A stretch of DNA of 64,000 bases from Cytophagales bacterium (GTDB lineage: Bacteria > Bacteroidota > Bacteroidia > Cytophagales > Microscillaceae): assembly GCA_013298075.1 (NCBI GenBank), contig JAAFJG010000001.1, forward strand, positions 62,001 to 126,000, read 5' to 3'. Below the pieces are notes generated by a model, which had not been told where the DNA came from, searched no databases, and worked only from the letters and a program-made list of their open reading frames with translations. Positions 11,188 to 64,000 of the stretch are shown in pieces. The position numbers and the translations under genes are program-made. Position 1 is the stretch's first letter; every line of letters begins with the position of its first letter.

Positions 11188-11188
11188 A

Positions 11189-12751: not shown

Positions 12752-12828
12752 ACAAAAGTAGCAATCCCAATTGGATTAAATATAAATTAAAGTATTACTT
12801 AAACTATAAAAATTAATTGAAAAAAATA

Positions 12829-12860
12829 TTTGTTTTTTTTAAACAAAAAAAGTAATTTTG
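12829..12860 (+). promoter_or_regulatory. Bacteroidetes-type promoter of type IIG copy 3
   Basis: TTTG (12829-12832), 20 bp, TAATTTTG (12853-12860), identical to the promoter of copy 1 together with the flanking sequence. Because the -7 box overlaps the TTG at 12858, that TTG cannot be the start, and the ATG at 12918 is used. Confidence 0.75.
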
Positions 12861-12917
12861 TTGGAAAATCATAAAAAAAACATAGAAAAAAATCACAAAA
12901 ACATAAAAAATCGACAA

Positions 12918-15344
12918 ATGAAATATCAAAATATCCAAGAACAAGAAATTAAAAATAAAATAACCATAGATTATTTTAAAATATATGATTGTACCAAAAT
13001 GATAGGAAATATAGATTTTTGTGTAACAATATTTCAAGAATCTCAAGACATTTCGGAACAGGAATCTCTTTTATGGGCGGAAGCAAAAACAGGAAACTCG
13101 GATTTGTCCAAATCTATCACACAACTTATCCTTACGATTGGCAAAGCAAGAACTTTTGATAAATTTTTGCCACCAAATATGTTGGGTGCTTTTGATGGTG
13201 AAAAAATGGCTTTTGTGCCTTATAACGAAATTCACGATATTTTTTATATCAATGATTTTAATTGGAATGTTACGCCTTCTAAATATGACACCAAAGAATT
13301 TAAGTTGATTCATGAAAAAGTAAAAAGTAATATTGATGAAAAAGCATTGCTTTTTTATTATGAAAAAGACGATACAGAATTAAAGAATTTTATCAAAGAC
13401 AATTTCAAAATAGGAAATTTTGGATTTACTAAAACTAAAATTGACAAAAATAATTTTATTACAATTTATAATAAATGGCTGCAAACCGTAAAACCAACCA
13501 TAGTCATGAATTGGGATATGGCTAAAAAAAGTGGTATTATTGATGGTGATTTTTATTTGGCTGATTTGCTCTCCTCTGAAAATCGAAGTTTGAAAGATAG
13601 TTTGTATGTATTACTCAAAAAAGACGAGTATCAATTAGATAGAAAATTAAACGAGTTAGGAATATTTGATAATAAATCTACAGGTTTTACGGATAAACAA
13701 AAAGCACATACATTATTTTGGAGTAAATATGAACGCCCTCCGAAAGAGGAATATTGGGATTATATTGTGGGGCGTAGAGATTTGCTCGTGCCGCAAGATA
13801 TAAGAGAGCGAAAAGGTAGTTTTTTTACACCACAAATTTGGGTAGAACTTTCTCAAAAATACCTCACTGATACTTTGGGCGAAAATTGGCAAGATGAATA
13901 TTATATCTGGGATTGTGCGGCGGGAACAGGAAATTTACTTGCTGGTTTGACCAATAAAAAGAATATTTGGGCTTCTACATTAGATAAACAAGATGTAGAT
14001 GTGATTCATGACCGTATTGAAAATGGTGCGAATCTTTGGAAAAATAATGTTTTTCAGTTTGATTTTTTGAATGATAGTTTTGATAAATTACCCAAAGAAT
14101 TACAAGATATTATCAAAAGTCCAAAAAAATGCGAAAAGTTAGTGGTTTATATCAATCCACCTTATGCAGAGGCAGGTTCTTCAAAAGCAATTATAGGAAC
14201 AAGTGAACGTAAAGCTGGCGTTACTACTCAATTTAAAATTAATGATTACTTCAAATCTAAAATAGGTAATGCATCAAATGAAATTTTTGCTCTTTTTATG
14301 GCAAATATTTACGAGAAAATTCCTAATTGTAAATTAGCACAATTTTCAAAATTAAAATTTATCAACGGTTTAAATTTTAAAAAATTTAAAAATTTCTTCT
14401 TAGCTGATTATCTTGGTGGTTTTATAGTGCCTGCTGAAACTTTTGATAATGTAACAGGGAAATTTCCTATTGGCTTTACTATCTGGAATACGTCTATTAA
14501 ATCAAAAATAAATAAAATTTCTACAGATATTATCCATGGAAAAGGAAGTCATTCAGGAACTAAAATTTTTTATGCAGACTTATCTCAAAGTATAAACAAA
14601 TGGATAAAAACTTTTGATGATAAAAACAGAGAGGGAATAGGTTTTATGAGTAATTCAGCACCAGACTTTCAACAAAATAATTATTTATACCTACAAATGA
14701 ATAAAGGTGTCGAACACGTTAATTTTTATAATTTCACACAAAATAATATAATAGAAGGTTTAATATATTTTGCAGTTCGCCATTGTATATCTGCCACTTG
14801 GTTAAACGACCGAGACCAGTTTTTATATCCAAAAGACACTTGGGAAAATGATACAGAATTTCAAAATGATTGTTTTATTTATGGTTTATTTCATGGTCAA
14901 AATCGTATTTCAAATAAATACGGCATCAATAATTGGATACCTTTTATTGAATCAGAAGTAGGTGCAAAAAATAAGTTTGAAAGTAAATTTATGGCTCATT
15001 TTATTGCGGGAAAACTAAAAAATGATACAGAAAATAAACCACTTATCAAAACAGAAAAGGTAATTAGAAATACGCCTTTGGTATTTTCAAAAGAAGCAAA
15101 AGAAGTTTTTGAGGCAGGAAAAAATCTTTGGACTTATTACCATAAACAACCAAAATGTAACGCAAACGCAAGTTTATATGATATACGTTCATATTTTCAA
15201 GGTAGAAATGAATCGGGAAAAATGAATCACAAAAGCGCGGATAGTGCGTATATGCAATACATAAATATACTACGTGAAAAATTAAAAGTTTTGGCAAAAA
15301 AAATAGAACCAAAAGTATATGAACACGGTTTTTTATTGAAATAG
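12918..15344 (+). CDS. Type IIG-like restriction-modification protein, copy 3
   Basis: The 808-residue protein has the same order as copy 1: nuclease-like N-terminus with IDFC and WAEAK, GSFFTPQIWVELSQKYL, motif I DCAAGTGNLL near 330, NPPYAE near 412, a unique variable segment ~418-618, then VRHCISATWLNDRDQFLYP and the shared C-terminus. The start is set at the ATG that gives the same MKYQNIQEQEIK start as copy 1; a TTG 60 bp upstream would overlap the promoter. It has its own promoter, so it can be expressed independently of copies 1 and 2. The segment after the recognition domain (NDCFIYGLFHGQNR) differs from the other two copies, while the last ~110 residues are nearly the same as in copy 2. 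Confidence 0.82.
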   Translation: MKYQNIQEQEIKNKITIDYFKIYDCTKMIGNIDFCVTIFQESQDISEQESLLWAEAKTGNSDLSKSITQLILTIGKARTFDKFLPPNMLGAFDGEKMAFVPYNEIHDIFYINDFNWNVTPSKYDTKEFKLIHEKVKSNIDEKALLFYYEKDDTELKNFIKDNFKIGNFGFTKTKIDKNNFITIYNKWLQTVKPTIVMNWDMAKKSGIIDGDFYLADLLSSENRSLKDSLYVLLKKDEYQLDRKLNELGIFDNKSTGFTDKQKAHTLFWSKYERPPKEEYWDYIVGRRDLLVPQDIRERKGSFFTPQIWVELSQKYLTDTLGENWQDEYYIWDCAAGTGNLLAGLTNKKNIWASTLDKQDVDVIHDRIENGANLWKNNVFQFDFLNDSFDKLPKELQDIIKSPKKCEKLVVYINPPYAEAGSSKAIIGTSERKAGVTTQFKINDYFKSKIGNASNEIFALFMANIYEKIPNCKLAQFSKLKFINGLNFKKFKNFFLADYLGGFIVPAETFDNVTGKFPIGFTIWNTSIKSKINKISTDIIHGKGSHSGTKIFYADLSQSINKWIKTFDDKNREGIGFMSNSAPDFQQNNYLYLQMNKGVEHVNFYNFTQNNIIEGLIYFAVRHCISATWLNDRDQFLYPKDTWENDTEFQNDCFIYGLFHGQNRISNKYGINNWIPFIESEVGAKNKFESKFMAHFIAGKLKNDTENKPLIKTEKVIRNTPLVFSKEAKEVFEAGKNLWTYYHKQPKCNANASLYDIRSYFQGRNESGKMNHKSADSAYMQYINILREKLKVLAKKIEPKVYEHGFLLK

Positions 15345-49531: not shown

Positions 49532-52500
49532 CTACCTAATCACCAACCAAGTCAATAATTCAAAATGTTTTTCGTTTCCTATTTCTTGTTCTGCCACTAC
49601 TTTTTTGTTGATTCCAAAAAGATTTTGTTGATTAGTTTCTGTTGCTTTTCCACGTATTGCTTGCATCGCAGATAGAATCAATCGATCATATAAATTCATA
49701 TCAGTTCCATTTTTTGTATCTTCATTAAATACATTACAAAGTTCTGGAATAGGATTTTTGTGAGGGCTGGCAATTTGTCTAAAAAGCGTTAATATTTTTT
49801 TAGGTTCTGTATAAGTGTGTTTTATTTCGCCATCTGCATTAATCCAAATCAAAAAAATATTTTTCAAAGGATTAAGATGTTGCGTTTTTTCTGCATTTTC
49901 TTTTTGTAAAAAACAAAATATAACGCCATTTTTAATATCTTTATTCGCTAATTTTTCAAAATTAGGTATTAAATTTTTGTACTCTCCCGCAGGCGAAGGC
50001 ACGATGCTATACAATCCATTCGCACTATTTTTGAAGGAATCATCTTTTAAAAATGATTTTAATTCCTCAAAAAATTCATCCATAGAAAACTCATTGAAGT
50101 TAATGCCATTGTCCACTTCTTCCAAATCCAAAGGTCTTTCTTTCAATTTTTTAAGTTGTTCGGCTCTATAATTCAATTCATTTTTTTCTTGAGTTTCGGC
50201 TTCTTCGATTGCTTTGGTATCCAAAATATTATCATCAGCCGTTGCTATCACATCAACCAAAGCCATTCTTGCTTTTACTCTTATTTCGAGATTGAGATAA
50301 ATATCGAGGTCAGCAGTAGGCCAGAAATTAAGCATTTGAATTTGTTTATTTTTGCTTCCTAATCTATCAATACGCCCAAAACGTTGTATCAAACGCACAG
50401 GATTCCAATGAATATCATAATTGATAACAAAATCACAATCTTGCAAATTTTGTCCTTCTGAAATACAATCGGTGGCGATTAAAATATCAATTTCAACGTC
50501 TTGTGGCATATTTTTCATCAAATTTCTATTTTTAGAAATAGGCGAAAAGTTAATCAATAAATCATTAAAAAGTGTCGAAATATTTTGCGAACTTTGTATA
50601 TTTGTTTGATTTTGGCGACTTCCTGTTACCAAAGCCGAATACATATTGAGTTCTTTTTTTGCCCAATCAGCAATATTTTCGTACAAATATAAAGCCGTAT
50701 CTGCATAAGCCGTAAAAATCAATATTTTTTTATTGCCTTTATTGATTGGATTTTTGATTTTATTTTGAATAGCTTCTTTCAAAATAGACAATTTTTTATC
50801 TCGTTTTGGAGTTATAGGTTTGGCAGTTTCTGAAACCGCCTCTAATTTTTCTTTGTCTGTATTCAAATCTATTAACCATTGATCAACGTCAATATGTTTC
50901 AAATTATAATGTAGTTTTTTGCCAACTAATTCATTAAACTCACTTATTTCTTCATCTTCATTATTTTCATTCAAAGAATCGGGTAAATCATTTTGTTCAA
51001 TTTCGACTTCCTTTTCTTTATTGATTTGAAAAATTTTAATTTTATCTTCCAATTTTTTAATTTTATCAATCGTAGAAGTTAAAGTTTTGGTAAAAGCAAA
51101 AATAGAACTTTCTAACCTTTTCAAAAAACCAACTTTCATCATACCAATCAAATATTTTTCTCGGTCTGCTTGATTAAAATTATCTTGATTCCCTTTTTTA
51201 TTGGTATTATTTTGTTTTTTTTCTTCCTTTTTTGCTTGTTTTTCTTCGTCTGTTGGTAAATTATATTTTTCTCTAAATTCATTATACACATAACGCGAAG
51301 GATTAAAAAGTACCAAATTATATTCTGATATTTTTTGATTGATAGCAGCAAAAGTAGGAAATAAATTTTGAATATCAATTTCAGGGCTTTGATTCATATT
51401 CAAAAGCCTTTCAGGAAAACTAATCGATTCAGTATCTTCATAATTACTTTTGATTTGTTGGCGAGAGCGTGCAATGGTTAATTCACTCAAAAGCGTAAAA
51501 AAATCTACGCCCAAAACATCAAAAAGTTGAGAGGATTTTTGGTTTGTATTGATAGTTGGGTCAGCCCAAGCCGTAAAGTTACGTTGTGCTTCTTTGAGCA
51601 AATTGCCGATGTGTGGAATACCCAAATTGTCTTTAAACGCATTGTCTTGTCCCTCTGTAATAAAATATAATTGATTGCGTAAATCTTTCAAAGTCGTATT
51701 GACGGGCGTAGCAGAAAGTAATAAAACTTTTGTTTTGATGCCTGTTTTGATGATTTCTTTCATCAATTTACCATAACGACTGATTCTTTTTTCTGTTGAT
51801 TTGCCTGTATTTCTAAAATTATGGCTTTCATCAATCACGACCAAACCATAATTTCCCCAATTCACATTATTCAATTCCATTCCTTGCGAATTTGTGCCTT
51901 GTGTGCGTGTGAGGTCTGTATGGGCGAATACGTCATAACTAAATCTATCGTCTTTCAAAATATTTCTATCGTCATTTTGCGTATAAATCAACCAGTTTTG
52001 CTCCAATTTTTTGGGACAAAGCACCATTACACGATTGTTTTGTAACTCAAAATATTTGATAACCGCCAACGCCTCAAATGTTTTTCCCAAACCTACGCTA
52101 TCGGCAATGATACAACCATTATAAACTCGTATTTTATCAATCGCAAGTTTTACGCCTTCCGACTGAAAATGATATAATTTTTCCCATATTTTAGTTTGTT
52201 TTAAACCTATTTTTTCGCTAATGCTTTCAATTTCTTCACTTCCTTTGAGTTTTTGGCTAAAAATATGATATAAAGTTTTGAAATAAATATATTCGGGACT
52301 TTTATCGGTATAAATTTCTTCTAAATATTTTAAAACGTCTTCTTTTACATCTTCTATTTTTACGTCTTCTACGCCATTTTCCCAAATCGTATCAAACCAA
52401 TTTTTCAATGCTTTTATATCTCTATTATCATTGACAATCATATTGAGTTCTAAATTAGACTTTTGTTTGAGTCCCAAACCGCTGACCGTAAAATTTGAAC

Positions 52501-52936
52501 TTCCTGTAACTGCTTTGGCTGCTCCTTTGTCTTTGGGTTGGATATAATACATTTTTCCGTGCAAAAAATCAGGTTTTATCATCGATTTGATGGCTACTTT
52601 TTCTTTGAACCAATCATAACAATTTTTGGCTGTTTCTTTTTGTTTCAATACATTTACGAGCGTAATTGTATCATCTTTTTCTATTTTAAATGATTTGCTT
52701 TCATTTTTTTCGGGGTCTAAATTTCTCAAAAAACTGGGTTCTCCGAACAAAAAACGCACAGATTTTACGCTGTCTAATTTTTGTTTTAGACGTTCATACG
52801 CATAAATCGTAAAATAAGCAGAAACAATAGAAAGTTCTGAATCAGCCTCAATATTTTCGGTTAAAAAATCGGCTACACTTCCATTTTCTCTATTGTCTAA
52901 TAAAGAAGAAGGATTATCTTTGGGAGAATTTGGCAT
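49532..52936 (-). CDS. PLD-nuclease-like + SNF2/DEAD helicase, defence-associated
   Basis: The 1134-residue protein has an N-terminal phospholipase-D-like domain (HGKMYY with His126/Lys128, then TGSSNFTVSGLGL and an acidic NLELN). It carries only one HxK motif, so it would have to dimerise to be a PLD nuclease. A superfamily 2 helicase follows: Walker A DSVGLGKT (279-286), DESH (369-372), SAT (408-410), and the C-terminal motifs ILIATDCISEGQNLQ and RFGRIDRLGS. The order PLD then helicase is known from ATP-dependent restriction and DISARM-like systems, though the companion genes differ here. It is the last gene of the minus-strand cluster. Confidence 0.87.
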   Translation of the reverse strand: MPNSPKDNPSSLLDNRENGSVADFLTENIEADSELSIVSAYFTIYAYERLKQKLDSVKSVRFLFGEPSFLRNLDPEKNESKSFKIEKDDTITLVNVLKQKETAKNCYDWFKEKVAIKSMIKPDFLHGKMYYIQPKDKGAAKAVTGSSNFTVSGLGLKQKSNLELNMIVNDNRDIKALKNWFDTIWENGVEDVKIEDVKEDVLKYLEEIYTDKSPEYIYFKTLYHIFSQKLKGSEEIESISEKIGLKQTKIWEKLYHFQSEGVKLAIDKIRVYNGCIIADSVGLGKTFEALAVIKYFELQNNRVMVLCPKKLEQNWLIYTQNDDRNILKDDRFSYDVFAHTDLTRTQGTNSQGMELNNVNWGNYGLVVIDESHNFRNTGKSTEKRISRYGKLMKEIIKTGIKTKVLLLSATPVNTTLKDLRNQLYFITEGQDNAFKDNLGIPHIGNLLKEAQRNFTAWADPTINTNQKSSQLFDVLGVDFFTLLSELTIARSRQQIKSNYEDTESISFPERLLNMNQSPEIDIQNLFPTFAAINQKISEYNLVLFNPSRYVYNEFREKYNLPTDEEKQAKKEEKKQNNTNKKGNQDNFNQADREKYLIGMMKVGFLKRLESSIFAFTKTLTSTIDKIKKLEDKIKIFQINKEKEVEIEQNDLPDSLNENNEDEEISEFNELVGKKLHYNLKHIDVDQWLIDLNTDKEKLEAVSETAKPITPKRDKKLSILKEAIQNKIKNPINKGNKKILIFTAYADTALYLYENIADWAKKELNMYSALVTGSRQNQTNIQSSQNISTLFNDLLINFSPISKNRNLMKNMPQDVEIDILIATDCISEGQNLQDCDFVINYDIHWNPVRLIQRFGRIDRLGSKNKQIQMLNFWPTADLDIYLNLEIRVKARMALVDVIATADDNILDTKAIEEAETQEKNELNYRAEQLKKLKERPLDLEEVDNGINFNEFSMDEFFEELKSFLKDDSFKNSANGLYSIVPSPAGEYKNLIPNFEKLANKDIKNGVIFCFLQKENAEKTQHLNPLKNIFLIWINADGEIKHTYTEPKKILTLFRQIASPHKNPIPELCNVFNEDTKNGTDMNLYDRLILSAMQAIRGKATETNQQNLFGINKKVVAEQEIGNEKHFELLTWLVIR

Positions 52937-52993
52937 ATATATATAAAAGTTTTTTTTTGAGAGATTTTTTTTTGTTTTTAGAAAGATAAAATT

Positions 52994-53221
52994 TTAAGCC
53001 GTTATGTCTTCTTTTGAAATGGTTAAAATATGAATATCAGCAGCTTTTAAAATTTCATTCAAATCATTTAAGTATTTATTTTTAAGATGTTTTTCTTGGC
53101 GAATGGATAAATTATTATCGTTTTCACCCATATTTTTACACTGAGTAATTATTTTATCACAACCTGCTATCAAATCTAATAAATGATTGATAACACGATA
53201 AGGAATTTTTGATGCGTCCAT
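52994..53221 (-). CDS. Small hypothetical protein in the defence cluster
   Basis: From the ATG at 53219-53221 it encodes 75 residues, predicted helical and charged (RVINHLLDLIAGCDKIITQC, then SIRQEKHLKNKYLNDLNEIL). There is no recognised domain. It lies between the second ATPase gene and the helicase gene on the same strand, with 57 bp to the helicase, so it may be a regulatory or accessory subunit of that operon. Confidence 0.6.
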   Translation of the reverse strand: MDASKIPYRVINHLLDLIAGCDKIITQCKNMGENDNNLSIRQEKHLKNKYLNDLNEILKAADIHILTISKEDITA

Positions 53222-53377
53222 TTTTTTTATCAAAATTAATCATTTTAATTGTTAGATTTTTTATTTCTCTGATTCTTATTTTTTTAAGTAACGAATACGA
53301 AACGCTTTGATTGCTTAATTTATTTTATAATCCTATTTTTCAACCCGAATTTCTACAAATCATTAAAAAACTATATT

Positions 53378-55114
53378 TTATGGTTTTATTTCGTTTATAA
53401 GTTGTTGGAGATTTTTTTCTCTTACATAAAACTTTTGAGGTAAGTCATTCAAATTAAACTCAAAACTAAATTCATCACACAAAAATTTATACATTTCTTG
53501 TAAAGATTCAAACTCTTTATTTTTAGAAATATCATCAACCCCATTTTTTCGAATATTTTTAAGTTGAATTTTACATCTATTCAAAAGTTTTTCGGTTTCA
53601 TTGGCTACAAGCAATGTAATATTTTCTTTGATTAAAATTTCTGCACCATTATTTGTATCAAATTGAAATAAGGCAGTTTTTCCTATTGTATTTGGTATTG
53701 GTTTTAAAGTAATATTTTCTAATTTTTTCAAAACTTTCATTACATCAATCAATTCTTGTTTAAAAATCGGATTTTTAATGTCATTATGAGAAAGAGGATT
53801 TAAAACGGCATCTTTATAAATACCTAAATTTTCAAAATCAGCATAATCTAAACCTTCTCCATCACAAAATTCTTTTAAGTTCGTTATAAGTGCATTAAGC
53901 CTTTTTTTCTCTGTCGCATATCCTTCTTCTTTGGTCTTAACTTCTACTTTGTAATAATAAGGAGTCAATATTTTTTCTAAAATATCTTCGCAGGTTTTTC
54001 GTAAATAAGAACCACACGCAGGATAATCGTGTTTTGCCAAATAATATTCTGCCTTTTGGATATGTGTTTTCGTTTCCAAAATCAGAGGCACATCAAAATT
54101 ATTAGTAAAATCATCTACATACATTTCAAAAAACTTCCAATTTTTCTTATCTTTATTTTCAAACCATTGTTTCGCTAACTCAAACCAAGTCCTATCATAA
54201 GTAGTCATAAAAATTTGATAATCTGAAAATTCATTTTTCAAAATATCTAACAAAGGCAAACGATTCGACGTATCCAAACCGATAAAAATATCATCTAAAA
54301 AAAGAATTTTGATAGTAGGTGTAGGAGTTTCTTTTAAAGATGCCAAATACATACAAATTGCCAACGCAGACAAACGGGCTTCGTTTAAAAAATCAAAATA
54401 CGATTGTGTTATTTTTTCATGATGATAATTGATAGAAAGTTTAATTTCTTTCACAAATTCACCTTTTTGCCACAAACTTTCAAAACCAAACTTAAATGTA
54501 ATATTTTGTTTGAAATATTCGTTTAACATTCGATTGGCAGTATTTTCTATGGTAGTTAATAAAGTATTAAACGCTTCATCAAAAATAGGTATTTTTTTAT
54601 CAATGACTTCTTTAAAAATAATTGTATTTTTTCTACTTTCTAAACCTTTTTCTATGTCTTCTAAATATTTGCCAAACGTAGTAAAAAGCTCAGAATCATA
54701 AGTATTTTGCAATACAGTTTCGATAAGTAAGGCAAATAAATCAGGACTTTTTTCGGTCTTTTCTGCTATATATACACGCAAAATACGCTGGTAGGTAAGA
54801 AAAGGATTGTAATTATGTACGTCTTTAAAAATATCATTTTTGTCAGCAGGCAAAATACCATTTGTATATTGATACAAAATACCATTATCAAATTCAAAAT
54901 ATACCTCAACTTTGTCTGTTGCTTGTATAAATATATTTTTTTCTATCTTTTTGGGTGTTTTGCTTGCCTCAAAAAAATGAACAAACGCCTTATACAAACT
55001 ACTTTTACCACTGCCATTTTCACCATACACAAGTAAATTTTTACCTGATATATTGATATGATGTTTGCCATAAAAAGCACGATAATTTTCAAATTCTATG
55101 TGAGTAATTTTCAT
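53378..55114 (-). CDS. RecF/SMC-like ATPase paired with methyltransferase 2
   Basis: The 578-residue protein has Walker A GENGSGKSS at residues 31-39. A degenerate signature, LNEARLSALAICMYLA, follows late in the sequence, then Walker B KILFLDDIFIGLDTSNR and a D-loop/H-switch region (QIFMTTYDRTWFELA, which has Tyr/Asp where a His is usual). The C-terminal ~200 residues are helical (DYPACGSYLRKTCEDILEKI). It starts 48 bp after the methyltransferase stop. The same domain layout is seen in the sister ATPase (59515-61146), although the sequences are far apart. Confidence 0.85.
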   Translation of the reverse strand: MKITHIEFENYRAFYGKHHINISGKNLLVYGENGSGKSSLYKAFVHFFEASKTPKKIEKNIFIQATDKVEVYFEFDNGILYQYTNGILPADKNDIFKDVHNYNPFLTYQRILRVYIAEKTEKSPDLFALLIETVLQNTYDSELFTTFGKYLEDIEKGLESRKNTIIFKEVIDKKIPIFDEAFNTLLTTIENTANRMLNEYFKQNITFKFGFESLWQKGEFVKEIKLSINYHHEKITQSYFDFLNEARLSALAICMYLASLKETPTPTIKILFLDDIFIGLDTSNRLPLLDILKNEFSDYQIFMTTYDRTWFELAKQWFENKDKKNWKFFEMYVDDFTNNFDVPLILETKTHIQKAEYYLAKHDYPACGSYLRKTCEDILEKILTPYYYKVEVKTKEEGYATEKKRLNALITNLKEFCDGEGLDYADFENLGIYKDAVLNPLSHNDIKNPIFKQELIDVMKVLKKLENITLKPIPNTIGKTALFQFDTNNGAEILIKENITLLVANETEKLLNRCKIQLKNIRKNGVDDISKNKEFESLQEMYKFLCDEFSFEFNLNDLPQKFYVREKNLQQLINEIKP

Positions 55115-55162
55115 ATATTATTTTTATTTAAAGAAATTTTAGAATGTTTTTATATCAAATTA

Positions 55163-58100
55163 TTATTCTTGACCTCGTATTATACTAACCACAGACACAC
55201 TACCCGAATAAAAAAGATTAGTCGCTACTATATTTTTAGGATGACTCACAATATTATAAAAATCTCGAATAGTATTTAGTATATCTATTTCTGATGAAAC
55301 TGGCAAAGGAACCAAATCTACTAAATATTGTAATATATCCCGATTACTTTTTTTGAGTTCATTTTCAAAGTATAATTCTATCACAGCCAAATCAATCAAT
55401 GCCCCAAAATATATCGACATTACTCTATCTTTTGACGTTTCTAATAAATGCTTATGCTCATTTAACCACAAAATATAATCTACTATTACTTCAAATGGCT
55501 TTTGTTGTTCTTTGGAAATTTGAGGAATTGGAATTTTTTCAATGAATTGTTTTATCCAACGAAATGCACTATTTCCTAAATCTGTTGCTATTTTTGTAAA
55601 GTAAAAATAAACTAATTTTGAATTTAAAACAGAAAGTAAAAATTTGTTTCCATTTGGAATAAAATAACACGTTTGATTACAAAATATTTTATTATCATCC
55701 CAAACAAAACAATTTCCACTCGTCATTTCTGCCCAAATAATTTTTTCCTTTAAAAACTCGTCCATATAACTACAACTACGGAGTTCCCACCAATATTGCC
55801 CTTGGTCATCACGATTATATAATCCTTTTCCTTTTGAAGATTGATTATTGGCTATTTCTTTAAAATGATTATAAACAGCAGGGAAAGTATTCTTAAAAAA
55901 GATTTCAGCATCTTCTTTATTTCGATTTTCGTTTGTCCAACCTGAAGGAATAACAATTAAATAAAGCCCTGCAAATTCATAACTATATGTTTTAATATCT
56001 CTCCCTCTTAAAATAGGTTTAATAATTTCTGCACTTTTGGGGTCTTGGCTTATCAATTCATTTTTTTTGGCTTCGTCGATGATAAATGCTTCATTGAAAC
56101 CTGTTAAAAGTCCTCTATAAATGGAAATATCCCAATCTTTTAAGGGTATTCCAATTTTTTCGATTTGTTGTTTTACTTTTTGTGTTTTGCTATTACTGAT
56201 TGTCCAAGCATCTTTTGTTAGTTGATTTAAAATGACATGATTTTCGCGAAAATAAGTAGGAATATCTGTGTTGTTTTTTTGATAAGTAACTGCTTTTACC
56301 TGTATATTTTTATTTTTTTCGTTGTTTTTTTCAAACATCAAAATATTTGTATCTACGGTGGCACTTTCAAAAACGCCTGCTCCCAAATCAATCAATAACA
56401 AAGGATTGGTTTCGATGGCTAAAAATTCTCTCAATTTTTCACCATAACCTGCACGCATCCACTTATTAGAAGTAATCAAACAAAGTAAACCTTTTTCTTT
56501 TAATAATTGATTGCCTTTTTCATAAAACAAACAATATAAATCGCTTGATTTCGAATATGTTTTAAAATTTTGTTTAGCAAATATTTCTGAACCTTGCATT
56601 TTTTGGAGTTGCACATAAGGTGGATTTCCCAATACAATATCAAAACCATCTTTAATTCCAAACATCAACTCCATATCGAACCAATCAGCCGAAGCATTTT
56701 GGTCGAATAAATCAAAATCAGCAATTTTTTGGGCGGTTGCTTTTCCCCAGCCATCTTTTTCTAAAAGCATGGCTATTTCTGTTCTGAGTTCTTTATCTTT
56801 TTGAATAAATTGATTTTTTTGCGTTTTATTTTTAACAGCGAAATATTTTTGTCTATTTTCTGCCAAATCAATTTCTAATTTATCGAGGCGCAAATTTTTG
56901 AGTTGTGCTTGTTTTTTAGGTTTATCTAATCCAATCAACGTATTTGCCGTTACAAATTTAGTTTCTAAATTAGGCAAAGGTTTGATGTTTTCGTTCTTTT
57001 GTTCGATGACCAAAGAGAGAAAAAAACGCAGTTTAGAGATTTGTATCGCAATATTTTGAATATCGATGCCATAAATACAATTTTGAACGAGATAAAGTTT
57101 TCGAGCATAATTATCTGTATTGAGATTGGTATTAAAGTCATTTTCAATTTGCTTTATTTTTTCATCAATAATTTGTTGTGCTTTATTTTTTACTTCGTTA
57201 TCTGACAAATGATTGATAATTTCTTTGTCTTTTTTTAGGCTTTGAATGATACTTTCTTTTTCGTGTTTGGTTTTATTGATGACAATTTGTCTAAAATAAT
57301 CATTATTAGCATCTAATTTTTTTAAGATTTGCACAAGTTTATCCAAAATCCCCATCGGGAACGCACCTGAGCCACAAGCGGGGTCAAGTATTTTGAGTTT
57401 GGTATAAATTTTTTCGAGAACTTCTTTGTTTTGTTTAGTCGTAAATGGACTTTTTTCAGTTTGATTATTGATAAGTTGCCTAAAATTTTCTTTCAATATA
57501 TCTTTATTCGGTTCGTTAATAATAGTGGCGGACATAGCAAGTTGCCCTTTTTTTGATTCGTTTACATCAAAAGCAGAGGTTTGTTGCGCTCCTAATTCTA
57601 TTTCAAAACCTTTATCTTTTTCAAAACTATTCACCAAAAACTCTAATAAACTTTCGTCCACCATATAATTCACAATTTCGCGTGGCGTATAAAACGAGCC
57701 TGAACTATTGCGAGCAGTGCTGGCGGTATTTTCATCATAAGAAGCCAATAAACTTTCAAAAATTTGTCCTAACAATTCAGGATCGAGGGCAATATCTTCT
57801 TCCAAAGGCGTATTTTCTTCAATCGTAAATTTATATTTTTTGAGTATTTTGACAATTCCTGTAACATACAAAGTTATTTTTTTGTTTTTTATGCCATAAA
57901 TAGTTTTCAATTCATTCGAAAAACTATCATTTTTATCAGCAAAAAATAAATAATCAGGAATACTCGCTTGATATTTTTCGATGCGTGTAAAACCATCAAA
58001 ATATTGTTTTTTATCTTTGTCTTTTTTATCCAAACTATCAAACAAACCGCCATTCAAAAAAGGCGTTTGTTCGAATATTTTCATAATGTTTGTCGGATTT

Positions 58101-59149
58101 TCATCTATAAATAAATTTTCATATCTATAAAAAGTATTGACATCATTATTAGTTCTATTTTCTACAAAAGATTTATTTTCTGCAAATCCTCGTTCTGTTT
58201 TTTCTCTATTCAAAGTCGCAAAAAATAGATTTTGGAGAATAGCTTTGTAGTAATGATTGCCGTTTTTGAAGTCTTTGAGCGTATTATTCAAATAATTTTC
58301 TTCGAATAAATTTTCTGCTACTAAGTTTTTTTCTTTGATAAACCACACAAAAATAAACCTTGTCAAAAGTCGAATCATCGCAATTTGATTGGTTTGTTCT
58401 TGCGATTTATCATCTGTGATAGGAAATTGACATTTATCCACTGCCCAAAAATACCAATTAGAAATTTCTTTGTAAAACTTTTTATTGAGTTCAGAAATAG
58501 ATAAAATTTCTTGCCACGCATCATGAATATCGATAAAATTTTTGATGTATTTTTTAACTTCTAATTTATCAAATGCTAAATCTGCCAAAATTTCGAGATG
58601 CGACCTTTTTGGATTTTGTATATCAATATCTTTGATAAAAGTAACTTTGAGCAATATATTTTTAGAATCATCTTTTTTATTTTTTCTTCTGTCAATAATT
58701 CCGAGCGTTATTTTTTGCCCAATTTTAAAAATAGGCATTACGCCATTTTGAAAAATTTGGTTAATTTCTCTTGTAAAATCGGCTAATTCTGTCCTTTTAT
58801 AATGAATTTTTTCGTCCAATTCGATTACAAACCAAAGATATGCATCTAAAAATGGTTTCTCGGCTTCTTGAGACCTTCGATTTTTTCGTTGTAATTCAAT
58901 ATCAGAAATTCGAAAAGGAATAAAGGCTTTTTTCCAATGTTGCGTTAATAATTTTTCATTGTTGGGCGTATTTCCTGTTTTTTCAATGACAAATTTTTTA
59001 AATTGTTCGTAATTTTCAAATTTTATATTCAGTTCGATATCCGTAGGATAATGCAAGGTTTTGAATAAATCAATCGTTGCTTGGTTTGGATTGGTATCAA
59101 AAGCGGTTAATTTTTTTTGTATGATTTCGAGGAATTCGTTTTCTTTCAT
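55163..59149 (-). CDS. Eco57I-like type IIG restriction-modification methyltransferase, copy 2
   Basis: The 1328-residue protein has a long N-terminal region (LWFVIELDEKIHYKRTELAD, then TLGIIDRRKNKKDD) with no sure nuclease motif. The methyltransferase core is SSGSFYTPREIVNYMVDESL, SAM motif I LDPACGSGAFPMG at about 589, IYGIDIQNIAIQISKLR, and catalytic motif IV NPPYVQLQKMQG at about 842. A target-recognition region fills the C-terminus, with LITSNKWMRAGYGEKL and PILRGRDIKTY before it. The start is the ATG at 59147-59149, below a TATATTTG promoter box. ATPase 2 follows. Confidence 0.85.
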   Translation of the reverse strand: MKENEFLEIIQKKLTAFDTNPNQATIDLFKTLHYPTDIELNIKFENYEQFKKFVIEKTGNTPNNEKLLTQHWKKAFIPFRISDIELQRKNRRSQEAEKPFLDAYLWFVIELDEKIHYKRTELADFTREINQIFQNGVMPIFKIGQKITLGIIDRRKNKKDDSKNILLKVTFIKDIDIQNPKRSHLEILADLAFDKLEVKKYIKNFIDIHDAWQEILSISELNKKFYKEISNWYFWAVDKCQFPITDDKSQEQTNQIAMIRLLTRFIFVWFIKEKNLVAENLFEENYLNNTLKDFKNGNHYYKAILQNLFFATLNREKTERGFAENKSFVENRTNNDVNTFYRYENLFIDENPTNIMKIFEQTPFLNGGLFDSLDKKDKDKKQYFDGFTRIEKYQASIPDYLFFADKNDSFSNELKTIYGIKNKKITLYVTGIVKILKKYKFTIEENTPLEEDIALDPELLGQIFESLLASYDENTASTARNSSGSFYTPREIVNYMVDESLLEFLVNSFEKDKGFEIELGAQQTSAFDVNESKKGQLAMSATIINEPNKDILKENFRQLINNQTEKSPFTTKQNKEVLEKIYTKLKILDPACGSGAFPMGILDKLVQILKKLDANNDYFRQIVINKTKHEKESIIQSLKKDKEIINHLSDNEVKNKAQQIIDEKIKQIENDFNTNLNTDNYARKLYLVQNCIYGIDIQNIAIQISKLRFFLSLVIEQKNENIKPLPNLETKFVTANTLIGLDKPKKQAQLKNLRLDKLEIDLAENRQKYFAVKNKTQKNQFIQKDKELRTEIAMLLEKDGWGKATAQKIADFDLFDQNASADWFDMELMFGIKDGFDIVLGNPPYVQLQKMQGSEIFAKQNFKTYSKSSDLYCLFYEKGNQLLKEKGLLCLITSNKWMRAGYGEKLREFLAIETNPLLLIDLGAGVFESATVDTNILMFEKNNEKNKNIQVKAVTYQKNNTDIPTYFRENHVILNQLTKDAWTISNSKTQKVKQQIEKIGIPLKDWDISIYRGLLTGFNEAFIIDEAKKNELISQDPKSAEIIKPILRGRDIKTYSYEFAGLYLIVIPSGWTNENRNKEDAEIFFKNTFPAVYNHFKEIANNQSSKGKGLYNRDDQGQYWWELRSCSYMDEFLKEKIIWAEMTSGNCFVWDDNKIFCNQTCYFIPNGNKFLLSVLNSKLVYFYFTKIATDLGNSAFRWIKQFIEKIPIPQISKEQQKPFEVIVDYILWLNEHKHLLETSKDRVMSIYFGALIDLAVIELYFENELKKSNRDILQYLVDLVPLPVSSEIDILNTIRDFYNIVSHPKNIVATNLFYSGSVSVVSIIRGQE

Positions 59150-59167
59150 AAGAATAAGTTTTTTTTG

Positions 59168-59199
59168 CAAATATAAATAAAAAAGTATTAGTTTTGAAA
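59168..59199 (-). promoter_or_regulatory. Probable promoter of methyltransferase copy 2
   Basis: On the minus strand TATATTTG (59175-59168) matches TAnnTTTG, with TTTC (59199-59196), one base off TTTG, 20 bp upstream. It would give a separate transcript for methyltransferase 2 and the downstream genes, with a very short leader to the ATG. Confidence 0.45.
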
Positions 59200-59268
59200 A
59201 CAAGAGAGAGATTTTATTTTTTGATGCTTAAAAAAGTTTGATTCAATATATTTTTTTTTGAAATATTT

Positions 59269-59355
59269 TCTTGAATTGCCTCCAGATTTATCTGAATTGC
59301 CTCCAGATTTATCTGGAGGATAATATAAAATTCAATAGTTGGCTTTAGCCAAAAT
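59269..59355. repeat. REP-like repeat of family R4, inverted and partly duplicated copy
   Basis: Read on the plus strand it has GAATTGCCTCCAGATTTATC twice in tandem, then CTGGAGG, then TTCAATAGTTGGCTTTAGCCAA. It matches the reverse complement of 49411-49475 except for the added unit. Together with the palindrome at 59411 it fills the ~300-bp gap between ATPase 1 and methyltransferase 2. Confidence 0.8.
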
Positions 59356-59410
59356 TTGTTACTGTAATTAAAAGTGTGGGAAATTATTTTGTAACAAAAT
59401 AGTTTCTCAT

Positions 59411-59433
59411 TGGTCTGTGGTACACAGACCAAG
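59411..59433. repeat. Hairpin (10-bp arms) after ATPase 1
   Basis: TTGGTCTGTG and its complement around GTA. It is followed by two copies of TTTCGGTCTGTGT at 59453-59485. There is no T-run on either strand, so a terminator role is not clear. Confidence 0.6.
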
Positions 59434-59514
59434 ATAACTTAGTAACTTTTATTTCGGTCTGTGTTTGTTTCGGTCTGTGTGCCACAGAGCGAGGAGTAAG
59501 GTGTTTTGGTCTTA

Positions 59515-61146
59515 CTACGTATTATTTACCTGCTCTAAAAATTTACGTAATTTTTCTATATTTTCTATTGCTTTTTCAAGTTCTTTTTGGTAAAGTGGAG
59601 TAATATTAGTTATTTGATTATGTGAACGAGGATTTAAAATTCTATTTTTTATATTTTCTAAATCATTGATAATTTCTTTTGCGTTACTTTTATTTTTTTG
59701 CATATCCAAAAAGAATAACATCAAATTTTTTAAAACACCTCTTATTTTGCCTTGTGGTAGTTCTATAAAAATTTCATTATTTTCAAATTTTTTAGTAAGT
59801 TGCTCAAAATCTTGTATTTCAGTTTCAGAAAGTTGTAATTTAAACTTTCTTTCAAAAGAGGCTAAATCTTCTTCATTTACTTTATTATGAGCCGTTTTTA
59901 TCAAATCTTGTAAAGATTTAAAGTCTTTTTCAATGAAAGATAAATCTTTATCCAAATAAACTTTTAAAAGTCGTTCGGCTTCTTTTCGTAAATGATTGGC
60001 ACAAGCATCAAATTCTCTATCTTCAAAAAAACGCTTGGCTTTGTGAAAATCATCTTCATCAAGTTTGATATGTGGTTTTTTATTTATTTTATCTTCATAT
60101 ATTTTATAACCAATCCAATCTCTTGAAAGTGTTTTATGCTTTATCAAATTATAAAAACCTTCATCATGTGTAAAAATAAAAACTTGATATTTATCAACAA
60201 ATTCCTTGAAAATTAAATTTAATATTTTATCTCGATTACTCATATCCAAACTCAACAACAAATCGTCTAAAATAAGAAGTTTGATTTCACTTGTTGCCAA
60301 CCTTAAATCAATATGTGCCAAATGAATGGCTAATGCCACCATATTTAAGCGTGCTTCATTCAAATAATTGTGTGGATTAGAAATTTTTTTACCTCCTAAT
60401 TCTAAATCCATAGATATAGTAGAGTTTTCTAATTGATTGGCTTTCTGGGGTAATTTTGTGTAGCCACAAGATAATGAAATAGATATTTCTGTTTCTTTTG
60501 TAAGCTTTTGATACCACTCATTTAATAAAGGCACTAATAACATAGTTTTTTGACCCAATGCCTTTGAAAATACCTCTAATTCTTCTCGTAATTTTTTATA
60601 CTTTAGTGGATTTTGCTTAGTATCTATTCCTAAACCTCTCAAAGTCCTTAGTCTTTCCCCAAAATTTCTATACCAATTATCAAACATACCGTATGTATTA
60701 TCTTCCCAAAAAGGAAAAAACTCGTGCCTAAATACATCAAATAAATCTATCTTTTCATCATTACGAAAATTATGAAAACTATACAAAGATTTGTAATTTA
60801 TAATTTCAGAAGCATAAAAACCATTTTTTATTTCTTTTTGTAATTCTTCTGAAACAACAGCATCTTCACTAAACTCATAAATCTCTCTTGTATCAAAATA
60901 TAATTTTACATACGTCTTATCATCTGCGGAAGCATATATATTACGAATATTATTATTTTCTAAACCATTTTCATTCAAAAAATTGGTATCGCCTCGTAAT
61001 GCATAATACAAAGCCCAATACAAACTACTTTTACCACTTCCATTTTCGCCATAAATCAATAAATTAGGGCAATTTTGTAAATCTAACTCAATAGGAGAAG
61101 AAAAACCTTTAAATGCACTTACTTCTATTTTGATAATTTTTTTCAT
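59515..61146 (-). CDS. RecF/SMC-like ATPase paired with methyltransferase 1
   Basis: The 543-residue protein has Walker A GENGSGKSS at residues 33-41, a signature-like LNEARLNMVALAIHLA, Walker B KLLILDDLLLSLDMSNR and the H-switch FIFTHDEGFYNLI. The C-terminal part is helical and charged, with DREFDACANHLRKEAERLL like the YPACGSYLRKTCEDIL of the sister ATPase. Its ATG overlaps the methyltransferase stop by one base (TAATG), a sign of translational coupling. No TOPRIM or nuclease motif is visible. By structure it is a RecF-like ATPase, and the pairing suggests it works with the methyltransferase. Confidence 0.87.
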   Translation of the reverse strand: MKKIIKIEVSAFKGFSSPIELDLQNCPNLLIYGENGSGKSSLYWALYYALRGDTNFLNENGLENNNIRNIYASADDKTYVKLYFDTREIYEFSEDAVVSEELQKEIKNGFYASEIINYKSLYSFHNFRNDEKIDLFDVFRHEFFPFWEDNTYGMFDNWYRNFGERLRTLRGLGIDTKQNPLKYKKLREELEVFSKALGQKTMLLVPLLNEWYQKLTKETEISISLSCGYTKLPQKANQLENSTISMDLELGGKKISNPHNYLNEARLNMVALAIHLAHIDLRLATSEIKLLILDDLLLSLDMSNRDKILNLIFKEFVDKYQVFIFTHDEGFYNLIKHKTLSRDWIGYKIYEDKINKKPHIKLDEDDFHKAKRFFEDREFDACANHLRKEAERLLKVYLDKDLSFIEKDFKSLQDLIKTAHNKVNEEDLASFERKFKLQLSETEIQDFEQLTKKFENNEIFIELPQGKIRGVLKNLMLFFLDMQKNKSNAKEIINDLENIKNRILNPRSHNQITNITPLYQKELEKAIENIEKLRKFLEQVNNT

Positions 61147-64000
61147 TATTTTATTTTGTTAGATTGATGAATAATTTTGATTTCTGATACGTGTAAATTT
61201 TGCAAAATAATATGATTCCTTACTATATGTTCTTTCTGACGAATACAATCATACACACGACCTATCAAAAGCCTTTTTTCTTCATCACTCGAACCCAAAT
61301 CTAACACCTCAAAACCATGCGCCAAAGTCATATATTGCAAAACATCGGCATCTTCTTTTTTTACGCTTTCTTCAAAATACAATTCAAAAACCATCGCATC
61401 GATGACATCTTCAAAAATACTCGATATATGGCTATTAGGTACATATTCATTGACTATTTTATCCTTATTTTCTCGCAACCACAAAATATAATCTACTAAC
61501 ATTTCAAATGGCTTTTGTTGGTCTGAAGATATTTGAGGAACAGAAAGATTTTTTACATTTGAAGAATTGCCCGCATTACCACCCACAGCATCACCAACTA
61601 TTATATTCATTAACCATTTAAAAAGACTTGAATTTAGAACACAACATAAAAACTTTAGATGATTTCCAGTAAAGAAATGCATGCTATCTTGAATAAATAT
61701 ATCTTTATCTACCAATGAAAAAGTTTTTTCACTTGCTATTCTATTCCAAACAATTTTTTCCTTTAAAAAATCGTCCATATAACCACAACTACGAAGTTCC
61801 CACCAATATTGCCCTTGGTCATCACGATTATATAATCCTTTTCCTTTTGAAGATTGATTATTGGCTATTTCTTTAAAATGATTGTAAATAGCAGGGAAAG
61901 TATTCTTAAAAAAGATTTCAGCATCTTCTTTATTTCGATTTTTGTTTGTCCAACCTGAAGGAATAACAATTAAATAAAGTTCTGCAAATTCATAATTATA
62001 TTTTTTAATATCTCTTCCTCTTAAAATAGGTTTAATAATTTCTACACTTTTTGGATTTTGTCTTATCAATTCATTTTTTGTGGCTTCATCAATGATAAAT
62101 GCTTCATTGAAACCTGTTTTTATGCCATAGTTTATTTTTATATCCCAATCTTTCAAAGGTGTACCGATTTTTTCGATTTTTTCTTTTATTTTTTGTGTTT
62201 TGTTATTGCTGATTGTCCAAGCGTCTTTTGTTAATCGATTTAAAATGATATGATTTTGACGAAAATAGGTAGCAATATCTGTGTTGTTTTTTTGATAAGT
62301 AACGGCTTTTAGTCGTATATTTTTATTTTTTTCGTTGTTTTTTTCAATCATCAAAATATTTGTATCTACAGAGGCACTTTCAAAAATGCCTGCTCCCAAA
62401 TCAATCAATAACAAAGGATTAGTTTCTTGTATAAAAAATTCTCTTAATTTTTCACCATAACCTGTACGCATCCAAGAGTTAGACGTAATCAAGCAAAGCA
62501 AACCTTTTTCTTTTAATAATTGATTGCCTTTTTCATAAAACAAACAATATAAATCGCTTGATTTCGAATACGTTTTAAATTTTTGTGCCTCAAAATAAGG
62601 TTGTTCTTTTTTCATTTTTTGGAGTTGCACATAAGGCGGATTTCCAATCACAATATCAAAACCATCTTTAATTCCGAACATCCATTCCATATCGAACCAA
62701 TCAGCAATGGCATTTTGGTCGAATAAATCAAAATCAGCAATTTTTTGAGCGGCTGCTTTTCCCCAGCCACCTTTTTCTAAAAGTGCGGCTATTTTTATTC
62801 TGATTTCTTTGTCTTTGTTGATAAGATTTGTTTTTTGCGTTTTATTTTGGACTTCAAAATGTTTTTTTCTTATTTTAGCCAATTCATCTCCTAATGTTTC
62901 GATTTCTAAGTTTTTAATTTGTGTTTGTTTTTCTAATCCAATCAACGTATTTGCGGCTACAAATTTAGTTTCTAAATTAGGCAAAGGTTTGATGTTTTCG
63001 TTCTTTTGTTCTATCACCAAAGAGAGAAAAAAACGCAATTTAGAGATTTGTATCGCAATATTTTGAATATCGATGCCATAAATACAATTTTGAACGAGAT
63101 AAAGTTTTCGAGCATAATTATCTGTATTGAGATTAGTATTAAAGTCATTTTCAATTTGCTTTATTTTTTCATCAATAATTTGTTGTGCTTTGTTTCTTAC
63201 TTCGTTATCTGACAAATGATTGATAATTTCTTTGTCTTTTTTTAGGCTTTGAATGATACTTTCTTTTTCGTGTTTGGTTTTATTGATGACAATTTGTCTA
63301 AAATAATCATTATTAGCATCTAATTTTTTTAAGATTTGCACAAGTTTATCCAAAATCCCCATCGGGAACGCACCTGAGCCACAAGCGGGGTCAAGTATTT
63401 TGAGTTTGGTATAAATTTTTTCGAGAACTTCTTTGTTTTGTTTAGTCGTAAATGGACTTTTTTCAGTTTGATTATTGATAAGTTGCCTAAAATTTTCTTT
63501 CAATATATCTTTATTGGGTTCGTTAGTAATGGTGGTAGACATAGCAAGTTGTCCTTTTTTTGACTCGTTTACATCAAAAGCAGTTACTTGTTGCGCTCCT
63601 AATTCTATTTCAAAACCTTTATCTTTTTCAAAACTATTGACCAAAAACTCTAATAAACTTTCGTCCACCATATAATTCACAATCTCGCGTGGCGTATAAA
63701 ACGAGCCAGAACTATTGCGAGCAGTAGTAGCGGTTTCGGGATTATAATATGCCAATAAACTCTCAAATACTTGTCCTAACAATTCAGGATCGAGGGCAAT
63801 ATCTTCCTCCAAAGGCGTATTTTCTTCAATCGTAAATTTATATTTTTTGAGTATTTTTACAATTCCTGTAACATATAAAACTACTTTTTTATCTTTTATC
63901 CCATAAATAGTTTTGAGTTCATTCGAAAAACTATCATTTTTATCGGCAAAAAATAAATAATCAGGTACACTCGCTTGGTTTTTTTCGATACGTGTAAAAC
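61146..64000 (-). CDS. Eco57I-like type IIG restriction-modification methyltransferase, copy 1, 5' partial
   Basis: The frame is open to the right edge: about 951 residues are visible and the N-terminal third is outside the window. From FTRIEKNQASVPDYLFFADK at the edge it matches copy 2 closely to the start of the C-terminal region, with the SAM motif LDPACGSGAFPMG and catalytic NPPYVQLQKMKK. The recognition part differs (NRIASEKTFSLVDKDIFIQ, then GDAVGGNAGNSSNVKNLSVP). The TTG near 63812 sits inside the frame and is not the start: the same residue is Leu in copy 2 (PLEEDIALDPE). It is coupled to ATPase 1 by a 1-nt overlap. Confidence 0.85.
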   Translation of the reverse strand, partial: FTRIEKNQASVPDYLFFADKNDSFSNELKTIYGIKDKKVVLYVTGIVKILKKYKFTIEENTPLEEDIALDPELLGQVFESLLAYYNPETATTARNSSGSFYTPREIVNYMVDESLLEFLVNSFEKDKGFEIELGAQQVTAFDVNESKKGQLAMSTTITNEPNKDILKENFRQLINNQTEKSPFTTKQNKEVLEKIYTKLKILDPACGSGAFPMGILDKLVQILKKLDANNDYFRQIVINKTKHEKESIIQSLKKDKEIINHLSDNEVRNKAQQIIDEKIKQIENDFNTNLNTDNYARKLYLVQNCIYGIDIQNIAIQISKLRFFLSLVIEQKNENIKPLPNLETKFVAANTLIGLEKQTQIKNLEIETLGDELAKIRKKHFEVQNKTQKTNLINKDKEIRIKIAALLEKGGWGKAAAQKIADFDLFDQNAIADWFDMEWMFGIKDGFDIVIGNPPYVQLQKMKKEQPYFEAQKFKTYSKSSDLYCLFYEKGNQLLKEKGLLCLITSNSWMRTGYGEKLREFFIQETNPLLLIDLGAGIFESASVDTNILMIEKNNEKNKNIRLKAVTYQKNNTDIATYFRQNHIILNRLTKDAWTISNNKTQKIKEKIEKIGTPLKDWDIKINYGIKTGFNEAFIIDEATKNELIRQNPKSVEIIKPILRGRDIKKYNYEFAELYLIVIPSGWTNKNRNKEDAEIFFKNTFPAIYNHFKEIANNQSSKGKGLYNRDDQGQYWWELRSCGYMDDFLKEKIVWNRIASEKTFSLVDKDIFIQDSMHFFTGNHLKFLCCVLNSSLFKWLMNIIVGDAVGGNAGNSSNVKNLSVPQISSDQQKPFEMLVDYILWLRENKDKIVNEYVPNSHISSIFEDVIDAMVFELYFEESVKKEDADVLQYMTLAHGFEVLDLGSSDEEKRLLIGRVYDCIRQKEHIVRNHIILQNLHVSEIKIIHQSNKIK

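Follow-up and report, generated by a model that had tools for sequence, protein, structure and literature searches.

The 64-kb window (the whole stretch of DNA that was analysed) corresponds to positions 62001–126000 of contig C1 of its genome. The ORF list and domain searches gave, on the minus strand, the gene order M1-A1, M2-A2, small ORF and helicase H. An earlier sequence-only reading had claimed two methyltransferase-ATPase pairs, a 75-aa protein and a PLD-SNF2 helicase on one strand, and both the ORFs and the domains of this cluster were confirmed. The features are as follows:

61146..64000 onward, minus strand: M1, Eco57I/TaqI_C-type N6-adenine methyltransferase with a C-terminal tail (Pfam Eco57I 4.5e-40, TaqI_C 2.2e-9; motifs DPACGSGAF and NPPY)
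59515..61146, minus strand: A1, SMC/Rad50-like ABC ATPase with an R-x3-E...SH C-terminal domain (SMC_N and AAA_23 matches)
55163..59149, minus strand: M2, Eco57I/TaqI_C-type N6-adenine methyltransferase with a tail (Eco57I 2.4e-37, TaqI_C 3.7e-15)
55166..55519, minus strand: tail of M2, the last 118 aa, without a Pfam match
53378..55114, minus strand: A2, SMC/Rad50-like ABC ATPase with an R372-x3-E376...S442-H443 C-terminal domain (SMC_N and AAA_15 matches)
52994..53233, minus strand: small ORF of 79 aa, or 75 aa from the ATG at 53221
49532..52936, minus strand: H, with PLDc_2, NgoFVII N-terminal PLD, SNF2 and Helicase_C matches

The start of M1 lies 1,156 bp past the end of the window, its full length is 1,336 aa (locus L005:1147-5157), and the tail match on the genome is found directly upstream of A1, i.e., at the M1 end. 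The listed ORF of M2 spans 55163-59203; its probable ATG at 59149 is codon 19, a start that matches those of M1 and of a third copy, M3. The N6-adenine motifs and the TaqI-type TRD by which type IIG/Eco57I-type enzymes are recognised were found in both M1 and M2. As the earlier reading had stated, each methyltransferase is coupled to its ATPase by an overlap or a short gap: one base is shared in the M1/A1 junction (TAATG), and M2 is separated from A2 by 48 bp. H, which matched the PADLOC model 'HKD+Snf2' (6e-126) and contains HxK...GSSN, GLGKT, DESH and QRFGRIDR (PLD/HxK, Walker A/B and motif VI), is the presumed restriction effector. The small ORF gave no match in Pfam, PADLOC or NCBIfam, and a phmmer search over the ATPase loci returned the window's own copy alone. 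The cluster is flanked by proC on one side and, on the other, by a PDDEXK_2 transposase-like gene and then metH. Elsewhere in the window (8758-15344), three large ORFs in a row (809, 520 and 828 aa) showed no Pfam matches.

The third pair, M3-A3, is located on contig C2 of the same genome, with no helicase nearby. The proteins M1 and M2 are 81% identical and A1 and A2 only 25%. At the DNA level M1, M2 and M3 are about 89–98% alike across the first ~400 codons, M3 being a mosaic by comparison of the three, and M1 and M2 remain mostly above 80% to about codon 1124, beyond which their similarity falls off abruptly, in the latter half of the TRD as well as in the tail and the ATPase. From these comparisons, the copies look like a constant N-terminal part joined to a variable TRD-tail-ATPase cassette. 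In Desulfobacterales HSG2 (L010:1915-17426) a tandem array M(no tail)-x-M(tail)-A-M(tail)-A was observed, whose final methylase is without either catalytic motif but retains TRD and tail as well as its ATPase.

Linkage of the C-terminal tail and the ATPase

A scan of the genomes of 84,980 species with an ATPase profile yielded 80 loci, distributed over Bacteroidota, Poribacteria, Latescibacterota, Chlorobiota, Cyanobacteriota, Fusobacteriota, Planctomycetota, Acidobacteriota, Chloroflexota, Gemmatimonadota, Thermodesulfobacteriota, Pseudomonadota and others. The methyltransferase-ATPase pair, for which the sequence-only reading had suggested such a survey, recurs with or without the helicase in many of these phyla, and its pairing is therefore not due to chance. 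With few exceptions, the gene 5' of the ATPase encodes a protein that ends in the same C-terminal tail of about 115 aa, placed after a TaqI-type TRD, for which no Pfam family was found in searches of the M proteins and of the partner classes described below. Over all loci, a tail-bearing gene is present upstream in 84 of 90 intact ATPases, with a 4-bp overlap in 42 of them. The six ATPases without a recognised tail partner comprise three at contig edges; two, in L023 and L065, that follow a GmrSD_N protein whose C-terminus falls under the tail threshold; and the one in L036. Three annotated records from outside the sample retained the tail, an overlap or 1-bp gap, and the conserved residues of the ATPase C-terminal domain (two records with SH and one with AH).

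Among 395 Bacteroidota genomes, the tail was found in 19, the ATPase in 15 and strong helicase matches in 73, and each intact ATPase had an adjacent upstream tail, the one exception being a fragment (G201). Twenty helicase-methylase loci without the ATPase were fetched; the tail was missing in 10 of the 10 with a readable methylase C-terminus, most of these tail-less proteins ending in an ordinary 'ID..VY.LY.LT.EE'. A further seven tail-less methylases lie inside ATPase loci, none of them directly 5' of the ATPase. Since methylases that are not followed by an ATPase lack the tail, the tail predicts the ATPase. The link is not absolute, as a tail without an ATPase was found in L132, L133 and, weakly, L134, and the intact H and M genes of L136 and L147 are accompanied by a broken or remnant ATPase gene. 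The relationship is asymmetric: an intact ATPase with readable upstream DNA and no tail partner is nearly absent, and a tail without an intact ATPase is seen. That the M-A genes, or tail-ATPase genes in general, form a linked unit is well supported.

These distributions bear on the suggestion of the sequence-only reading that the ATPase gates cleavage. As a sensor or gate, the ATPase would be docked on the methylase, hydrolyse ATP at an unmodified site and so license the PLD-helicase; the SMC-like head suits DNA binding or looping, and 32 of the 39 methylase-class loci have helicase and methylase genes next to that of the ATPase. Because ATPase-free PLD-helicase/methylase pairs are common and their methylases are tail-less (compare the 73 genomes of 395 with a strong helicase and the 15 with the ATPase), an add-on role as guard or effector is more probable than a gate. 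The abundance of such pairs suggests that they function without the ATPase elsewhere. The ATPase is also found with partners in the absence of helicase and methylase, and its loss is tolerated beside intact H and M (L136, L147). All in all, a gate appears unlikely. The tolerated loss of the ATPase, together with the near absence of an intact ATPase without a tail partner, supports a guard instead.

Several loci show other genes around the tail-ATPase junction. In L133 (6748-11388) MBL-fold-like, SIR2-like and HerA-like genes, as judged by eye, occupy the expected place of the ATPase after the tail-bearing methylase. Genes inserted between the tail-bearing methylase and the ATPase were seen in L066 (AlbA_2-HATPase), L084 (similar by eye), L067 (GmrSD) and L070 (McrBC-type), and as small unannotated ORFs in L075, L035, L057 and L135.

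Partner classes and co-variation with the ATPase

The proteins encoded 5' of the ATPase fall into four classes. Class I consists of Eco57I-type methylases, with 39 loci and a PLD-SNF2 helicase within the fetched DNA of 32 of them, as counted from an automatic split in which some GmrSD-class loci are mislabelled. Class II comprises TIR- or FRG-TPR-TaqI_C proteins, mostly from Poribacteria, class III GmrSD_N proteins of about 1,030 aa, and class IV Z1 helicases adjoining genes for C5 methylases, HNH, MORC-like ATPase and AIPR proteins. In addition, bare TRD-tail proteins of 285–363 aa lie directly 5' of the ATPase on the Nostoc plasmid pANSO36B (L190), on the Thiospirochaeta plasmid pSpe (L191) and in Calothrix (L083). 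The unit of ATPase and Eco57I-type methylase proposed in the sequence-only reading thus stands as a recurring one, but the ATPase is not specific to methylases, being found also with TIR/FRG-TPR, GmrSD_N, Z1 and nearly bare TRD-tail proteins.

The tail is homologous among all four classes (hhalign E values from 9e-42 to 3e-9); five of the six tail-versus-TRD controls were insignificant, and the class I tail versus the class II TRD gave a weak, short match of 37 columns. By profile-profile comparison the TRD is clearly common to classes I and II, probably to class IV and weakly to class III. The constant partner of the ATPase is the TRD with the C-terminal tail, not the methylase or the helicase.

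Pairwise distances of the tail and of the ATPase were correlated in 37 class I pairs with a rho of 0.69 (bootstrap 0.48–0.83), as compared with 0.25 for the N-terminus of the methylase, 0.30 for the core and 0.13 for the TRD, and the tail was above every other region in each bootstrap. As the TRD adjoins the tail, the gap between the two is not readily explained by simple linkage. In an ATPase tree of 89 sequences at least five changes of partner class were needed, with the class I loci L017, L018, L050, L051 and L063 placed within class III and L045 (class I) within class II; the class labels used in the tree were corrected ones that still depend in part on protein length and locus, and long branches leave some placements unsure. 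Linkage and co-variation demonstrate a unit, not binding.

Another explanation is that of ordinary restriction-modification genes with hitchhiking ATPases, in which tail and linkage would reflect shared ancestry alone. In its favour, the operon is flanked by housekeeping genes (proC, and at the far end metH with the transposase-like gene), and class II is largely confined to Poribacteria. This explanation is contradicted by a tail that follows the ATPase through many phyla and in four protein classes that are unrelated to each other, and is missing without it, and by co-variation of the tail with the ATPase that the neighbouring TRD does not share; it is considered very improbable.

The main rival to a guard is an effector-neutral DNA sensor and activator, in which a non-nuclease ATPase would oligomerise on unmodified DNA through the TRD-tail-ATPase part and activate the domain or protein fused to it or encoded next to it (PLD-helicase, TIR, FRG, GmrSD, Z1/MORC). 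The variable effector-like N-termini beside a constant TRD-tail-ATPase part are in agreement with this, as are the at least five partner switches, and in classes II and III the TIR, FRG and GmrSD domains could be effectors, so that in class II the ATPase could be the activator of the TIR or FRG domain. Such a sensor would leave the bare TRD-tail and ATPase pairs (L190, L191, L083) without an obvious effector, and the nearly invariant R-x3-E...SH residues of the ATPase would need some other role. The existence of the bare pairs suggests that the ATPase itself carries an effector, and we regard the neutral sensor as doubtful.

Two arrangements in these classes may be mentioned. The bare pair of pANSO36B (L190:7988-10434), a conjugative plasmid, lies close to a gene of the TrbI/VirB10 family. 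In the Poribacteria loci L041, L043, L044, L068, L077 and L081, tail-less class I methylases are found upstream of a TIR/FRG-TPR-TRD-tail protein and its ATPase, an arrangement that would fit a transfer of the tail and ATPase function to a separate receptor protein.

Structure and conserved residues of the ATPase

The ATPases are about 470–650 aa long and have no long coiled coil. In the model of A2 (pLDDT 84.4) the head matched the folds of SMC and Rad50 heads, and the ATPase head contains Walker A, a signature-like LNEARLS motif and Walker B. The C-terminal domain, helical in the A2 model, is diverse among the ATPases. In 93 of them its most conserved residues were R372 (100%), E376 (100%), H443 (99%) and S442 (95%). 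These residues agree with the triad defined for the anticodon nucleases PrrC and RloC, Arg-X3-Glu-X36-52-His, often with Ser before His, which mutations in RloC have confirmed (PMC2610378); the Glu-His spacing in the present ATPases is mostly 56–69, longer than the 36–52 of RloC. Domains of the PrrC/RloC type have been placed in the HEPN superfamily, with a guard logic proposed for the restriction-linked cases (PMC3710099), and PrrC is listed as a restriction guardian (PMC12707154).

When the C-terminal domain was aligned by hhalign to the C-termini of RloC proteins, the result was not significant under several settings (probability 0.3%), the general HEPN motif Rx4-6H is not conserved in it, and single-sequence matches to Pfam HEPN/DUF4145 were weak (E 0.018 or worse). 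Against PDB sequences it gave a weak match to 2jpu/2q00 alone (E 0.1), 2q00 being listed as HEPN (PMC3710099). A fold search against viral structures returned generic SMC/ABC matches alone. Residues of the PrrC/RloC type suggest that the ATPase is an RNase serving as a second line of defence. From the residue pattern, the domain order and the genomic context, we infer that the ATPase is a PrrC/RloC-like putative RNase; the conserved Arg, Glu and His could be structural instead of catalytic.

The model of the TRD and tail of M2 (pLDDT 92.9) is confident all through the helical tail. Fold and sequence searches with this part matched CamA, M.BseCI and MmeI, and the fold search also BrxX. In the N-terminal ~590 aa of the methylase no nuclease family was found by Pfam.

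Comparison with known systems and a proposed mechanism

Among guards of restriction enzymes PrrC is the textbook example, and until now it has seemed a special case. In PrrC/EcoprrI an ABC ATPase-anticodon nuclease guards a type IC restriction system. The present ATPases resemble PrrC in having an ABC ATPase followed by a C-terminal Arg-X3-Glu...His domain within a restriction-modification operon, for which guard logic has been proposed (PMC2610378, PMC3710099, PMC12707154). They differ in that the partner is an Eco57I-type methylase or another TRD-tail protein, not a type I HsdMSR, and in the putative docking tail, which is not described for PrrC in the literature compared. With RloC they share the Rad50-like head and Arg-X3-Glu...Ser-His, but RloC has a long coiled coil, absent here, and is rarely linked to restriction loci. 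AAA_13 (PF13166) had no significant match in the ATPases, and a search of the window's genome for this family found none.

The methylases resemble type IIG enzymes (PADLOC REase_MTase_IIG, PDLC03601) and PglX/DrmMI in their methylase core and TRD, with matches of 1.9e-140 and 2.3e-126 that extend through a large part of the protein. Unlike type IIG enzymes, they have the extra tail and an ATPase that looks obligatory, and cutting is probably performed by the separate PLD-SNF2 helicase. The nuclease of NgoAVII and CglI is of the PLD type. These systems likewise combine a nuclease and a helicase motor with a methylase (PMC4267653). They differ from the present one, in which PLD and an SNF2-type helicase form one protein, the methylases are adenine-specific and of the Eco57I type, and ATPases are added.

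Several candidates were rejected. Hma (PADLOC) and the DUF499-centred BREX-related systems also bring helicase, methylase and ATPase together; PADLOC describes Hma by an m5C methylase and a DUF499 ATPase, whereas adenine methylases and SMC-type ATPases are found here, and the match of H to HmaA was weak (1.7e-21). DISARM is represented by distant DrmD/DrmMI similarity alone, with no other Drm gene (DrmA, DrmB, DrmC) in the operon, and BREX by PglX-like similarity well under the cut-off, PglZ and BrxC/PglY being missing from the operon. Lamassu, Septu, Gabija and PARIS gave weak head-only or partial ATPase matches of at most 57 bits, and their cognate effectors are absent; none of their ABC ATPases covers the C-terminal domain as a family, and the partners differ. 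Passages of Iyer et al. 2008 on MORC systems showed no matching ABC ATPase. No explanation of the PADLOC name C3a139 was found in the open-access literature searched.

The statement of the sequence-only reading that the cluster does not match a nameable system held: no library searched identifies the complete set as a system already described, PADLOC, Pfam and NCBIfam matching separate parts only. Targeted searches of open-access literature found no description of the unit; a prior description in subscription papers is possible. Read as a restriction guard, the unit would belong to a kind already known from PrrC; its reading as a new plug-in immune module is less certain.

The best explanation, to which we give about an even chance, is a restriction system (M1, M2 and H) with a tail-docked PrrC-like guard RNase on each methylase. 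The N6-adenine methylases M1 and M2 and the PLD-SNF2 helicase H would make up the restriction-modification system, the TaqI-type TRD of each methylase recognising a DNA site, and at an unmodified site on invader DNA H would translocate and cut. The ~115-aa tail of each methylase would dock its own ABC ATPase, made of the SMC/Rad50-like head and a putative HEPN-like C-terminal domain with Arg-X3-Glu...Ser-His. The ATPase would be silent on a working complex; if the complex were inhibited or became stuck on unmodified DNA, the RNase would be released from silencing and translation would stop. Two or three M-A pairs may then provide several sequence specificities with H as one shared cutting enzyme. 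In this guard system physical docking, RNase activity, silencing, trigger and helicase sharing are all predicted features.

A broader reading, held more tentatively, is that TRD, docking tail and ABC ATPase-nuclease may form a self-standing, sequence-programmed module, in which an unmodified site or failed restriction would lead to RNA cleavage and shutdown, and which could be plugged into methylases, TIR/FRG proteins, GmrSD, Z1/MORC or a bare TRD. The same tail-ATPase module is present on at least four unrelated immune proteins. If the reading is true, restriction guarding is a plug-in function tradable between systems. An unnamed domain, the tail, and an unclassified ATPase family gain a testable role, and the tail is readable in sequence, so that a methylase alone forecasts whether an ATPase partner is present.
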